DNA of 64,000 bases. Source: Pelagomonas calceolata. Taxonomy: Eukaryota > Sar > Pelagophyceae > Pelagomonadales > Pelagomonadaceae. The notes under the pieces were generated by a model that had not been told where the DNA came from, searched no databases, and saw only the letters and a program-made list of their open reading frames with translations. Each line of letters begins with the position of its first letter. Position 1 is the first letter of the stretch. Shown in pieces: positions 2 to 16,192 of the stretch. The position numbers were made by a program, and so were the translations under genes. The DNA is taken from contig CAKKNE010000001.1 of NCBI GenBank assembly GCA_918797485.1, positions 1,302,001 through 1,366,000 of the forward strand. The letters run 5' to 3'.

Positions 2-2329
2 ACGCCGACGAGCGACCTGACGGCGACGCCCCGCGGACCATCGCTGTACCCGGGCGCCCGGCCGCCGTTGTCCGGAGGTGACGCGCTCGACCACTCGGGC
101 CTCACCGAGTGCACGACTGCAGTAAGACGCCAGGACTCGTCTTCTTCCTTCTTCCAAACGCCTGATAGGAGAAGCGCCGCGACGCCGCCACCCGTCCGGG
201 AGTGCGAGGTCTGTGCCGGTGCCAAATGCGTTTGTTCGCCAGTAGATCTAAGCCCAGCATTACTCGAGAGGCACAACCGGCAGCAGCCGCTGCAGGGGCT
301 GTCGTCGTTATCGCTAGGTGACAGGGAAGCCTTGAACCTCGATAATTTTGCGATCGTGTGTAAGATCGGCGAGGGGTCTTTCGGGAAAGTCGTGCTTGCC
401 CGAAAGAAAGACGACGGGGCCCTCCACGCGGTCAAGGCGGTGCGCAAGGAGAAATTATTAGCGTCCGGGTCTGCGGCGATCCAACATGTCCTCGACGAGA
501 ATAGCATCCTGCAGCGACTGAGGCATCCCTTCGTACTTACCTTACAGTACGCGTTCCAGGACGCCGATCGGCTGTACCTCGTGACGAATTATGTCGGGGG
601 TGGCACGCTGTATCAATTAATAACACAACGAGGAAAAGTGAAAGAAGACTTGGTGAGATTCTACGCGGCGCAGCTCGCCGCAGCTTTTGCTTATCTCCAC
701 CTAAATAATGTGGTGTACCGCGACCTCAAGCCGGAGAACGTCCTACTCGGATTAGATGGCTACGTCGTCCTGGCAGATTTTGGCCTCGCGAAAACACTGG
801 TGGATACGACGACCGCAACCTTTTGCGGCACTCCCCTCTACTTAGCGCCGGAAGTCGTCCAGCGGCGACCCTACGCGTTTTCCGTCGACTGGTGGACTCT
901 TGGGTGCCTTACGGTGGAGATGCTGACGGGACGGCCGCCGTTCGTGGCCCGAGACTTGCCTGAATTGATGCAGCTCATCGAGCAAGGTAAAAGATCCTTC
1001 GACGTCTCTACTTTGAGTGGCAACGCGTCCATGTTCGTGCTGGGGCTCTTACAAAAGGACGTCTCCAAAAGGTTAAAAGCGCCGGGCGTGTTTGATACGC
1101 ACTTCCTGCGATCAATAGACCGCACGGCACTCGAAAACAAGACCATCGAGCCGCCCTACGTCCCCGACCCCGCGAGCGAAGCCATTGGTAGAGGCGGCTC
1201 GCCGCGCCACGCGTCGCAGCGGGAGCTCGCGCAGTTCGCAAATTTCAACGCCTTTTGTCGAGACGAGTCGCCGCGGGCCCACGCCGAATTATCGTCCAAA
1301 TTATGTGATGCTGCTAGACGAGGAGCCTGTGGGGAGTTGCGGGAGTTGATGGCGGATGGTGCGGATGTGAATCACGGAGACTATGATCGAAGGACGGCGT
1401 TGCATTTAGGGGCCGCGGAAGGTCATCTGGATGTGGTGGACTTTCTCATAGCGCACGGCGCGGACGTGAACGCGCAGGACCGGTGGCGGGGCACACCTCT
1501 CAGGGACGCCGAGGCTAGTGACCATCAAAACGTTGTGGAGCTCCTAAAACGCCACGGCGCGCGCGACTCGGTCACGGAGCAGCGCGCTTCGGTCACGGAA
1601 GCCGACGTCACGTCGCGGTTATGCGACGCTGCTAGGCGTGGCGACGTCGAGTCCTTGAGACGATTAGTTGCGGCGGGCGCCGAAGTGACACGTTCAGATT
1701 ATGATGATAGGACACCGTTACACTTGGGCGCGGCGGAGGGCCACGTCCGGGTCGTGGAATACTTGATTGCGCGCGGTGCTGACGTGAATGCCTGTGATAG
1801 GTGGCGCGGCACGCCTTTACGAGACGCGGAGGACGGCGGCCACTCTAGTGTAGTGCAACTGCTGAAGCGCCACGGCGCGAAACGGTTGAAACGGCGCTCG
1901 CGTAGCCTAGGAAGCTTCGGCAACCTGCGCCAGGCCTTCCGGCAGCAGACGATGCGGAGGAACGTCTCGGCCATAAACATGGCCGCGATCGCGCCCGCAC
2001 CCGAAGTCGGCTTGGATCTGTCCCAGAGTGGCTCCGACGGCCGCCTCTCGCCGTCGTCGCTCATGGACCGTTCTAATAGGTCGAACCGGTCGGCGGGCTC
2101 GGCTCGATCGGGGCGGTCGTCGCCCTCCTCCCTCACACGGCTCTTCCACCGGCGGAAAACGCCGTCCATGGACGCTTCTGGTAGTACTAGGGCGGTGGAT
2201 CGGTCGACGCTCGACGCGTCGGGCCGCGGGCTGATTATTGACCCGCCGGCGCGCGGACGTCGAGAAGGTGATCAGCTGGACCGGTCGAATGAATTAGATA
2301 GGTCCAACGCGTCCTGCAAGCTGATGTAG
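2..2329 (+). CDS. AGC-type Ser/Thr protein kinase with C-terminal ankyrin repeats (5' partial)
   Basis: The reading frame is open to the left window edge and contains no ATG before the kinase domain, so the true start lies upstream. A small Cys cluster (CEVCAGAKCVC) precedes the kinase. Kinase motifs seen in order: glycine loop GEGSFG (about nt 368), catalytic loop YRDLKPEN (about nt 716), DFG (about nt 776), and activation segment FCGTPLYLAPE. The YRD form and the CGTPxYLAPE segment are typical of AGC kinases (PKA/PKG/S6K group). After the catalytic domain come two blocks of ankyrin repeats (about nt 1290-1560 and 1605-1885), each with TALHLGAAEGH- or TPLHLGAAEGH-like cores and near-identical order, an internal duplication. 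The tail is Ser/Arg/Asp rich (RSNRSNRSAGSARSG). Likely a cytosolic signalling kinase; the substrate cannot be told from sequence. Family call is strong, subfamily uncertain. Confidence 0.9.
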   Translation, partial: TPTSDLTATPRGPSLYPGARPPLSGGDALDHSGLTECTTAVRRQDSSSSFFQTPDRRSAATPPPVRECEVCAGAKCVCSPVDLSPALLERHNRQQPLQGLSSLSLGDREALNLDNFAIVCKIGEGSFGKVVLARKKDDGALHAVKAVRKEKLLASGSAAIQHVLDENSILQRLRHPFVLTLQYAFQDADRLYLVTNYVGGGTLYQLITQRGKVKEDLVRFYAAQLAAAFAYLHLNNVVYRDLKPENVLLGLDGYVVLADFGLAKTLVDTTTATFCGTPLYLAPEVVQRRPYAFSVDWWTLGCLTVEMLTGRPPFVARDLPELMQLIEQGKRSFDVSTLSGNASMFVLGLLQKDVSKRLKAPGVFDTHFLRSIDRTALENKTIEPPYVPDPASEAIGRGGSPRHASQRELAQFANFNAFCRDESPRAHAELSSKLCDAARRGACGELRELMADGADVNHGDYDRRTALHLGAAEGHLDVVDFLIAHGADVNAQDRWRGTPLRDAEASDHQNVVELLKRHGARDSVTEQRASVTEADVTSRLCDAARRGDVESLRRLVAAGAEVTRSDYDDRTPLHLGAAEGHVRVVEYLIARGADVNACDRWRGTPLRDAEDGGHSSVVQLLKRHGAKRLKRRSRSLGSFGNLRQAFRQQTMRRNVSAINMAAIAPAPEVGLDLSQSGSDGRLSPSSLMDRSNRSNRSAGSARSGRSSPSSLTRLFHRRKTPSMDASGSTRAVDRSTLDASGRGLIIDPPARGRREGDQLDRSNELDRSNASCKLM

Positions 2330-14744: not shown

Positions 14745-15907
14745 ATGCACAAAGCCCTGAAGCTCAAGCGCGTCGCCGACGCCCTCGCGGCGGCCGGCGG
14801 CGGCTGGCTGCCCTTGACTTTAAAAGCGTGGCGCAAGTACGTGAGGCGCAAGCGCGGCAAGGAGAACAAGCCGCCCGCCCTACCGCCGCCGCCGCCCGTC
14901 GCAGAACCGCCGGTCCTGGACACTTGTGCAAAACTCCAACCGCCGTCGCCGCCCCTCTGCCAGACGTACGCGGCGCCGCCCGTCCCGCCGCCGCGGCGCC
15001 GCCCGCTGCGCGGCGCGTTGAGAGAAGAGGCCGTCCAGCTCGCCGCGCTCTTGGAGCGGCGCCGCGCGGCGTCGGCCACCTACCTCCTGGAGCAGCACCA
15101 ATCGAAAGCCACGCGGCGCCGCCTGACCGCGCGGCCCAAACCCATTCAGTCAAAACGGTTCGGCTGGCTCAAGATGCAGGGCGCCCGTTCTCCCGCGGAC
15201 AAGACGGCGCAGCAGGCGCTCAAGATCTTTCCCGCCTTGCGGTGCCTCGAGGTCGCGTCCGGTGCGCGCGCGGCGTCCGTCATTCGACGGCGTGGAGGTG
15301 GCGCGTACGTGTCCCCCACCCGCACGCCATCGCCGCGACCGCGTCTTCGCTCGACGCGTCGACGGCGCGGAGAGGATACGACGTCGAAAGCGTCGACATG
15401 GCGTGACGATCACCTCACACAGGCGTCGCCTCGAACCTCTTCGACCGCTTCGCGACAGCAGTACTAGTAGTAGAGTTCTACCTGACGGACGACCTGCCGC
15501 GGGTCATGGAGCCTCCTGTGGCCGTGGACCCCTGATGCCCGGTGCGCGGCGGCCGCTCCATGAATTTATTGAATGACTTCGCGGCCAAGTATAGACAGGG
15601 CGACGTAGCACTACCAGCAAATTGCGTCACCTTCGCCGCAATTTGCGTCGACGACAACCCGAAGCGATGCCGCGTCAACGCTCAACGCAAGTGGCCCCAC
15701 CTCGCCCACTTCTGGGTCGAGGCCGCGCAGATCGCAAAGTGCCGCGTCGCCTTCGTGCCCAACCGCTGCGTCGTGCGGTGCGCTGATCGTTCAGTGGTCA
15801 AGTGGTGGGACGGCTCGCACGGGAACGTCCTGCGGGGGCCGCACGGCGCGTCGCGCGCGAACGGGTCCCAGTCTCTGGCTCGAGCCATCGCCGACGCCCT
15901 CGCTTGA
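14745..15907 (+). CDS. Probable selenoprotein with thioredoxin-like C-terminal domain
   Basis: Exons 14745-15261 and 15423-15907, joined in phase (donor GTGCGC at 15262, acceptor CACACAG at 15422), give 333 codons with one in-frame TGA at 15533-15535 (residue 210). The first half is basic and Pro-rich. After the splice, the sequence NLFDRFATAVLVVEFYLTDD looks like the first thioredoxin strand; the UGA sits in ...VDP-UGA-CPVRGG, next to a Cys; helix NLLNDFAAKYRQ, strand VTFAAICVDDNP and the cis-Pro region CRVAFVPNRCVV with VVKWWDG follow. Coding character continues on both sides of the TGA, and a SECIS-like hairpin starts 11-19 nt after the stop. Known: pelagophytes are rich in selenoproteins. 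Alternatives: a Trp-to-stop mutation (TGG would give WCP), or a 96-nt phase-0 intron (15503-15598) that skips the TGA but would delete the expected helix. Redox enzyme is an inference. Confidence 0.65.
15262..15422 (+). other. Intron of the selenoprotein candidate
   Basis: 161 nt, GTGCGC...CTCACACAG. The acceptor and the CGTCGACG-rich interior (CTCGACGCGTCGACGGCG) resemble diverged introners, but no clear terminal repeat or target duplication remains. Removing it joins exon 1 (..EVAS-G) to GVASNLFDRF in frame. Confidence 0.65.
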
Positions 15908-15917
15908 AGTGTGAATA

Positions 15918-15969
15918 TGCGCTACATGACGGCCCGCGTCTCAACTCGGGACGCGGGCCCGACCGCGCA
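15918..15969 (+). promoter_or_regulatory. SECIS-like element in the 3' UTR
   Basis: The core is ATGA (15926-15929), then a perfect 10-bp helix GGCCCGCGTC (15931-15940) with GACGCGGGCC (15950-15959), an apical loop TCAACTCGG with AA at 15943-15944, and GA (15961-15962) opposite the ATGA. A lower helix TGCGC (15918-15922)/GCGCA (15965-15969) closes it. Order and spacing (13 nt from ATGA to AA) fit the eukaryotic SECIS consensus. It lies just after the stop at 15907, about 390 nt from the in-frame TGA. Confidence 0.65.
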
Positions 15970-16192
15970 GTGCCGCTTTGGGCGACTTATCGTTAACTAT
16001 GTCGTTTTTATATCGTCGCGGCGATGGCGTTCTTGCCTTGCTTGAGGTGCTTGTCCCGACGCGGCCTTTGGCGTTGCCTGGCCCTAACCGCTCGTAGGAT
16101 TAAGCCTGGCTGCCACTAGCTCCTGCGACCCGTGGCGTCAAACAAAACGGTTTTCACACCCCGCGCCCTGGCTCCGCGCGGAATCCGCGTGG

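Follow-up and report, generated by a model that had tools for sequence, protein, structure and literature searches.

Pelagomonas calceolata carries a gene in which a single TGA interrupts the reading frame of a thioredoxin-like domain, raising the question of whether this codon is translated as selenocysteine (Sec), passed by some other means, or removed from the transcript. The gene lies in a 64,000 nt stretch of contig CAKKNE010000001.1 (assembly GCA_918797485.1), the whole of which we refer to as the window and to which all coordinates without a contig label refer. The published genome of strain RCC100 (PMC9481584) comprises 32.4 Mb on six nuclear contigs, a plastid sequence of 90 kb and a mitochondrial one of 39 kb, and has a GC content of 63%; the assembly analysed here holds 32,445,274 bases in 8 contigs, two of them of 90,574 and 39,373 bases. 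As judged from comparative sequence analysis, we consider it highly probable that this locus is a real selenoprotein gene, with the following organization:

14745-15969, + strand: candidate selenoprotein gene, consisting of exon 1, a probable intron, exon 2 and a SECIS element
14745..15261, + strand: exon 1, N-terminal helix (LTLKAWRKYVRRKRGK) and Pro-rich region
15262..15422, + strand: probable GT-AG intron of 161 nt; the paralogue is intronless at the same place
15423..15907, + strand: exon 2, thioredoxin-like domain with the putative internal Sec codon, ending at TGA 15905-15907
15533..15535, + strand: internal TGA, proposed to be read as Sec; the sole in-frame TGA of the paralogue aligns with it
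15644..15646, + strand: conserved Cys codon (in alignments AICVDD here, ACCVDP in the paralogue, ALCLDD in a CxxC relative)

One reading frame is interrupted by a single TGA

Upon re-checking, a single frame was found to run from 15407 as far as the stop codon at 15905-15907, likewise a TGA, and to be interrupted only once, by the TGA at 15533-15535. This codon falls within the thioredoxin-like domain of ~160 aa and is flanked in frame by VLVVEFYL...PPVAVDP on one side and CPVRGGRSMNLLNDFAAKY...FVPNR on the other, in agreement with an earlier reading of the sequence alone (hereafter the sequence-only reading), which had noticed thioredoxin-like sequence on both sides. We infer the start of exon 1, whose M1 and AWxKxxRRxRxK motif the intronless paralogue also has at its N-terminus in the alignment; its 3′ end is uncertain, with alternative donors present. 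The 161 nt intron postulated earlier is possible but not unique: the exons can be joined only by an intron whose end falls near 15422, 15421-15422 is the best-fitting acceptor, the donor is one of several candidates, and 15 GT-AG pairs connect the two frames.

The TGA is kept in a diverged paralogue

A translated whole-genome search returned only one relative of the domain, at C1:649774-650223 on the minus strand, which is 41-42% identical across the whole domain (E 3e-26). Its sole in-frame TGA shares the column of 15533-15535 while 59% of the residues differ (PPVAVDP-U-CPV in this gene, PPLVAVDA-U-SRV in the paralogue), so that the column, for which TGG (Trp) in homologues had been named as a counter-indication, holds TGA in both, and the pair has the motif VAVD(P/A)U(C/S)xV. 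The N-termini are also alike, with a helix containing AWxKxxRRxRxK followed by a Pro-rich segment, and neither domain contains a frameshift or a further stop. Of the 121 residues downstream of the TGA, 48 are the same in both paralogues, and the codons agree 74 times at position 1, 70 times at position 2 and 50 times at position 3, the least conserved of the three (one-sided p = 0.0008). Within 15503-15598 the corresponding counts are 17, 18 and 7 of 31 codons (p = 0.0017). These codon-position counts indicate constraint at the protein level before and after the TGA, and within the segment 15503-15598 as well. Between the paralogues, pN/pS is 0.74 (raw) and pS is 0.57.

A SECIS element follows the stop codon

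The hairpin behind the stop codon has the layout that the sequence-only reading had described, from the ATGA through the perfect stem to a closing lower helix:

15918..15969, + strand: SECIS element (R1 covariance model, 28.8 bits, E 8e-5)
15918-15922/15965-15969, + strand: SECIS helix I, lower helix of 5 bp
15926-15929 and 15961-15962, + strand: SECIS core, ATGA and GA
15931-15942/15948-15959, + strand: SECIS helix II, perfect stem
15943-15944, + strand: apical AA

The spacing of the element is ATGA-13 nt-AA-16 nt-GA, and as 13 and 16 nt fall inside the published SECISearch limits (NTGA-10..13-AA-15..39-GA; PMC2375036), it conforms to the published definition. For scoring, we used a covariance model (R1) built from the SelW SECIS of the same genome alone with the structure supplied, because MAFFT misaligned the palindromic SECIS sequences. 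Within the 64 kb window R1 placed 15913-15974 on top, ahead of a runner-up with 17.1 bits, and 31 control loci totalling about 96 kb, this locus aside, reached 20.3 bits at most, so the score lies clearly above the background with which the sequence-only reading had asked it to be compared. It is also on par with the SECIS of TrxR (29.1 bits), on a scale on which one glutathione peroxidase (GPx, L020) reaches 21.5 and the DsbA-like gene 17.5 bits. A pattern search of the genome gave 62 matches in 65 Mb of strand (~1e-4 expected per 100 nt), compared with 14 for the reversed pattern, and the well-paired matches include the elements behind TrxR, behind one deiodinase-like, one DsbA-like and one GPx gene, and behind both paralogues. 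The Rfam model SECIS_1 matched neither the window segment nor anything in the whole genome, standard selenoproteins included; its silence at this locus is therefore uninformative and not a negative result. The SelW gene of the same genome (L015) has a near-identical SECIS (ATGACGGCCCGCG...CGCGGGCCCGAC) while its protein domain (Pfam Rdx) is unrelated, and the likeness may reflect a lineage-wide preference.

At the paralogue locus, the best R1 placement is the hairpin at the gene end (21.5 bits), in which core and helices are present and the apical AA/CC is absent. The SECIS-like hairpins of a SelT-like gene (L016) and of one GPx gene (L019) likewise have no AA/CC at the usual apical position, so that apical motifs seem to be relaxed in this genome. 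The stop TGA of the paralogue (L002:1489-1491; C1, minus strand) is at the same time the UGA of its own SECIS core quartet, and helix I takes in the last codons of the gene.

Sec machinery and other selenoproteins of the genome

The genome encodes tRNA-Sec with a UCA anticodon in two gene copies, SepSecS (E 1.6e-111) and SelD (E 3.1e-83). The two tRNA-Sec copies (L004 and L005; C5:5024950-5025614) score equally and belong to a tandem tRNA-Trp/tRNA-Sec/tRNA-Val cluster. In-frame TGA codons were found in the SelW- and SelT-like genes (Pfam Rdx) and in four GPx genes, the 3′ hairpins of which are of one style, mostly RTGAC-GC-rich stem-CGA, and lie 25-54 nt past the stop. Hairpins of the same pattern follow GPx, TrxR (GCUG end), DsbA-like, deiodinase-like and SelW genes with an in-frame TGA. 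In the deiodinase-like (SGSLSUPPF; L029, C1:3196210) and DsbA-like (TMUPNGY; L050, C2:2832535) selenoprotein genes the terminal TGA lies 26-28 nt upstream of the SECIS.

How the internal TGA is read

Sec is the best reading of the internal codon because the TGA has been kept in an old paralogue, a SECIS-class hairpin follows both stops, and the genome possesses the Sec machinery and other selenoproteins; going by the same comparisons, the sister gene almost certainly reads its internal TGA as Sec as well. Weighing against it are a terminal codon that is itself TGA, the missing apical AA/CC of the paralogue, and a family of just two members from a single genome. Three other accounts have to be considered as well. 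The TGA might lie inside a retained or unrecognised intron of 96 nt (15503-15598) that is normally removed, with no Sec being made, an account that draws on the GT at 15503, the AG at 15597-15598 and a length that, as a multiple of three, keeps the frame. The paralogue, however, is colinear and similar across this segment (VAVD-U) without a matching GT donor, and within the segment it is codon position 3 that varies; moreover, excision would delete the predicted active-site helix and would leave the SECIS unexplained. This intron, which the sequence-only reading had itself considered, is thus unsupported, and we regard it as very improbable.

Sec-independent readthrough, programmed or leaky, with a near-cognate tRNA at the UGA giving short and extended proteins from both genes, would likewise conserve the TGA and the coding constraint downstream of it, but it is at odds with SECIS-class hairpins just past both stops in a genome that also encodes further selenoproteins. 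The TGA also sits in the core of the domain rather than between domains, and it is followed by T and not by C, the typical next base at leaky UGA sites; we hold this account to be very unlikely, too. Finally, the genes could be decaying, either as two pseudogenes with the same old nonsense mutation or through a change from TGG to TGA, Trp being common immediately before CxxC, and the pN/pS is indeed only moderately below 1. Against such decay stand domains that are free of frameshifts and other stops, a significant constraint after the TGA in a duplication as old as its pS suggests, and a SECIS in both supposed pseudogenes. Polishing of the assembly with Illumina reads (PMC9481584) also counts against decay, which we consider exceedingly unlikely.

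Following the Sec reading, UGA 15533 would be decoded by tRNA-Sec(UCA), directed by the SECIS at 15918-15969 some ~390 nt downstream, and translation would terminate at UGA 15905. In the predicted product, a basic helix and a Pro-rich linker would precede the thioredoxin-like domain, and Sec would sit either where the first core strand ends or where the active-site helix begins.

A thioredoxin-like domain without a CxxC pair

The domain has no match among Pfam or NCBIfam models, and no relatives were found in viral contigs or in bacterial or archaeal genomes. The same genome encodes a Thioredoxin_8/Redoxin-like protein (L056; C3:2211823-2212098) that passes the Thioredoxin_8 cut-off and shares with the pair the active-site helix, the (A)(I/L)C(V/L)DD strand end and the cis-Pro loop; the pairwise similarity is significant, with Smith-Waterman scores of 66 and 73 when Sec is written as X (z ~8). 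This relative has a CxxC (CERC) and a short loop between strand and helix and contains neither a TGA nor a Pro-rich N-terminus, whereas the selenoprotein pair has ~14-16 extra residues before Sec and lacks the second Cys of the CxxC. Accordingly, a redox motif of the CxxC, UxxC or CxxU type is absent (U-C-P-V here, U-S-R-V in the paralogue), and the Cys of AICVDD is the one Cys common to both paralogues and the CxxC relative.

The sequence-only reading had put the UGA at about the place of the WC in WCxxC. Its location in the active-site region holds, but the exact register varies with the letter used for Sec, and we therefore limit the claim to the strand end or helix start given above. An alignment of Sec with the first Cys of CxxC, which appeared with Sec as C and was lost with X, A, S or W, was rejected. 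Nor is the adjacent Sec-Cys pair, previously singled out as unusual, conserved: the paralogue has Sec-Ser, so Sec-Cys is neither the defining motif of the family nor essential. AlphaFold models made from two sequences had pLDDT values of 47 and 46, and Foldseek with these low-confidence models returned noise and no meaningful PDB match. With no Pfam or NCBIfam match and such poor models, fold and catalytic role are assigned with little confidence. Profile hits to designed WD40 proteins were discarded as repeat artefacts of ~8 bits per repeat.

The protein probably functions as a Sec-dependent thiol-redox or peroxide-reducing enzyme that has no resolving Cys of the CxxC type. The selenol of Sec would serve as the nucleophile in a thiol-disulfide or peroxide-reducing reaction, and the oxidised Sec could be resolved by an external thiol (glutathione, thioredoxin) or by the Cys of AICVDD, a possible partner of Sec.

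A probable new selenoprotein family

Thioredoxin-fold selenoproteins of algae (AhpC_a/b, TlpA, PDI_a-e, DsbA, GRX and SELENOU; PMC7539508) likewise combine a thioredoxin-like domain, Sec in the active-site region and a SECIS in the 3′UTR. Going by the descriptions given there (PMC7539508), the gene is set apart from them by the absence of UxxC (AhpC_b), TGGUT (AhpC_a), GUGUU (PDI_e) and the hemerythrin fusion of TlpA. Together with its single paralogue, it probably represents a new small selenoprotein family without a CxxC pair. The pair was not described for Pelagomonas calceolata in the literature searched, and the published genome paper makes no mention of selenium and has not one word starting with 'selen' (PMC9481584). 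We tentatively suggest, as a possibility rather than a probability, that the family is specific to pelagophytes and Sec-only, with a lone Sec and a Pro-rich arm, and that the terminating UGA in the SECIS core of one member serves as a stop only; within this suggestion, the UGA of the paralogue could only be a stop because a ribosome positioned there would melt the SECIS.

Standard gene callers would probably truncate the protein at the TGA, and the locus suggests that the reliance of an abundant ocean alga on selenium has been overlooked. The lineage-specific SECIS pattern allows the rest of the Pelagomonas selenoproteome to be listed. A near-identical hairpin of this pattern occurs at C1:174192, C2:3824955, C5:174253 and C3:2789578; these four look like repeats, since the two loci that were read contain no convincing selenoprotein ORF. 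At four other loci (L030, L031, L036 and L049), an ORF with an in-frame TGA is followed by a well-formed SECIS-like hairpin. A Pfam scan of L030, L031 and L036 gave no significant family, and the motifs among the four, which are candidates for unlisted selenoproteins, are FKTUPPSGKKGG (in a membrane protein), GGSUPPP, LYTUPTAGW and a C-terminal ACUG.
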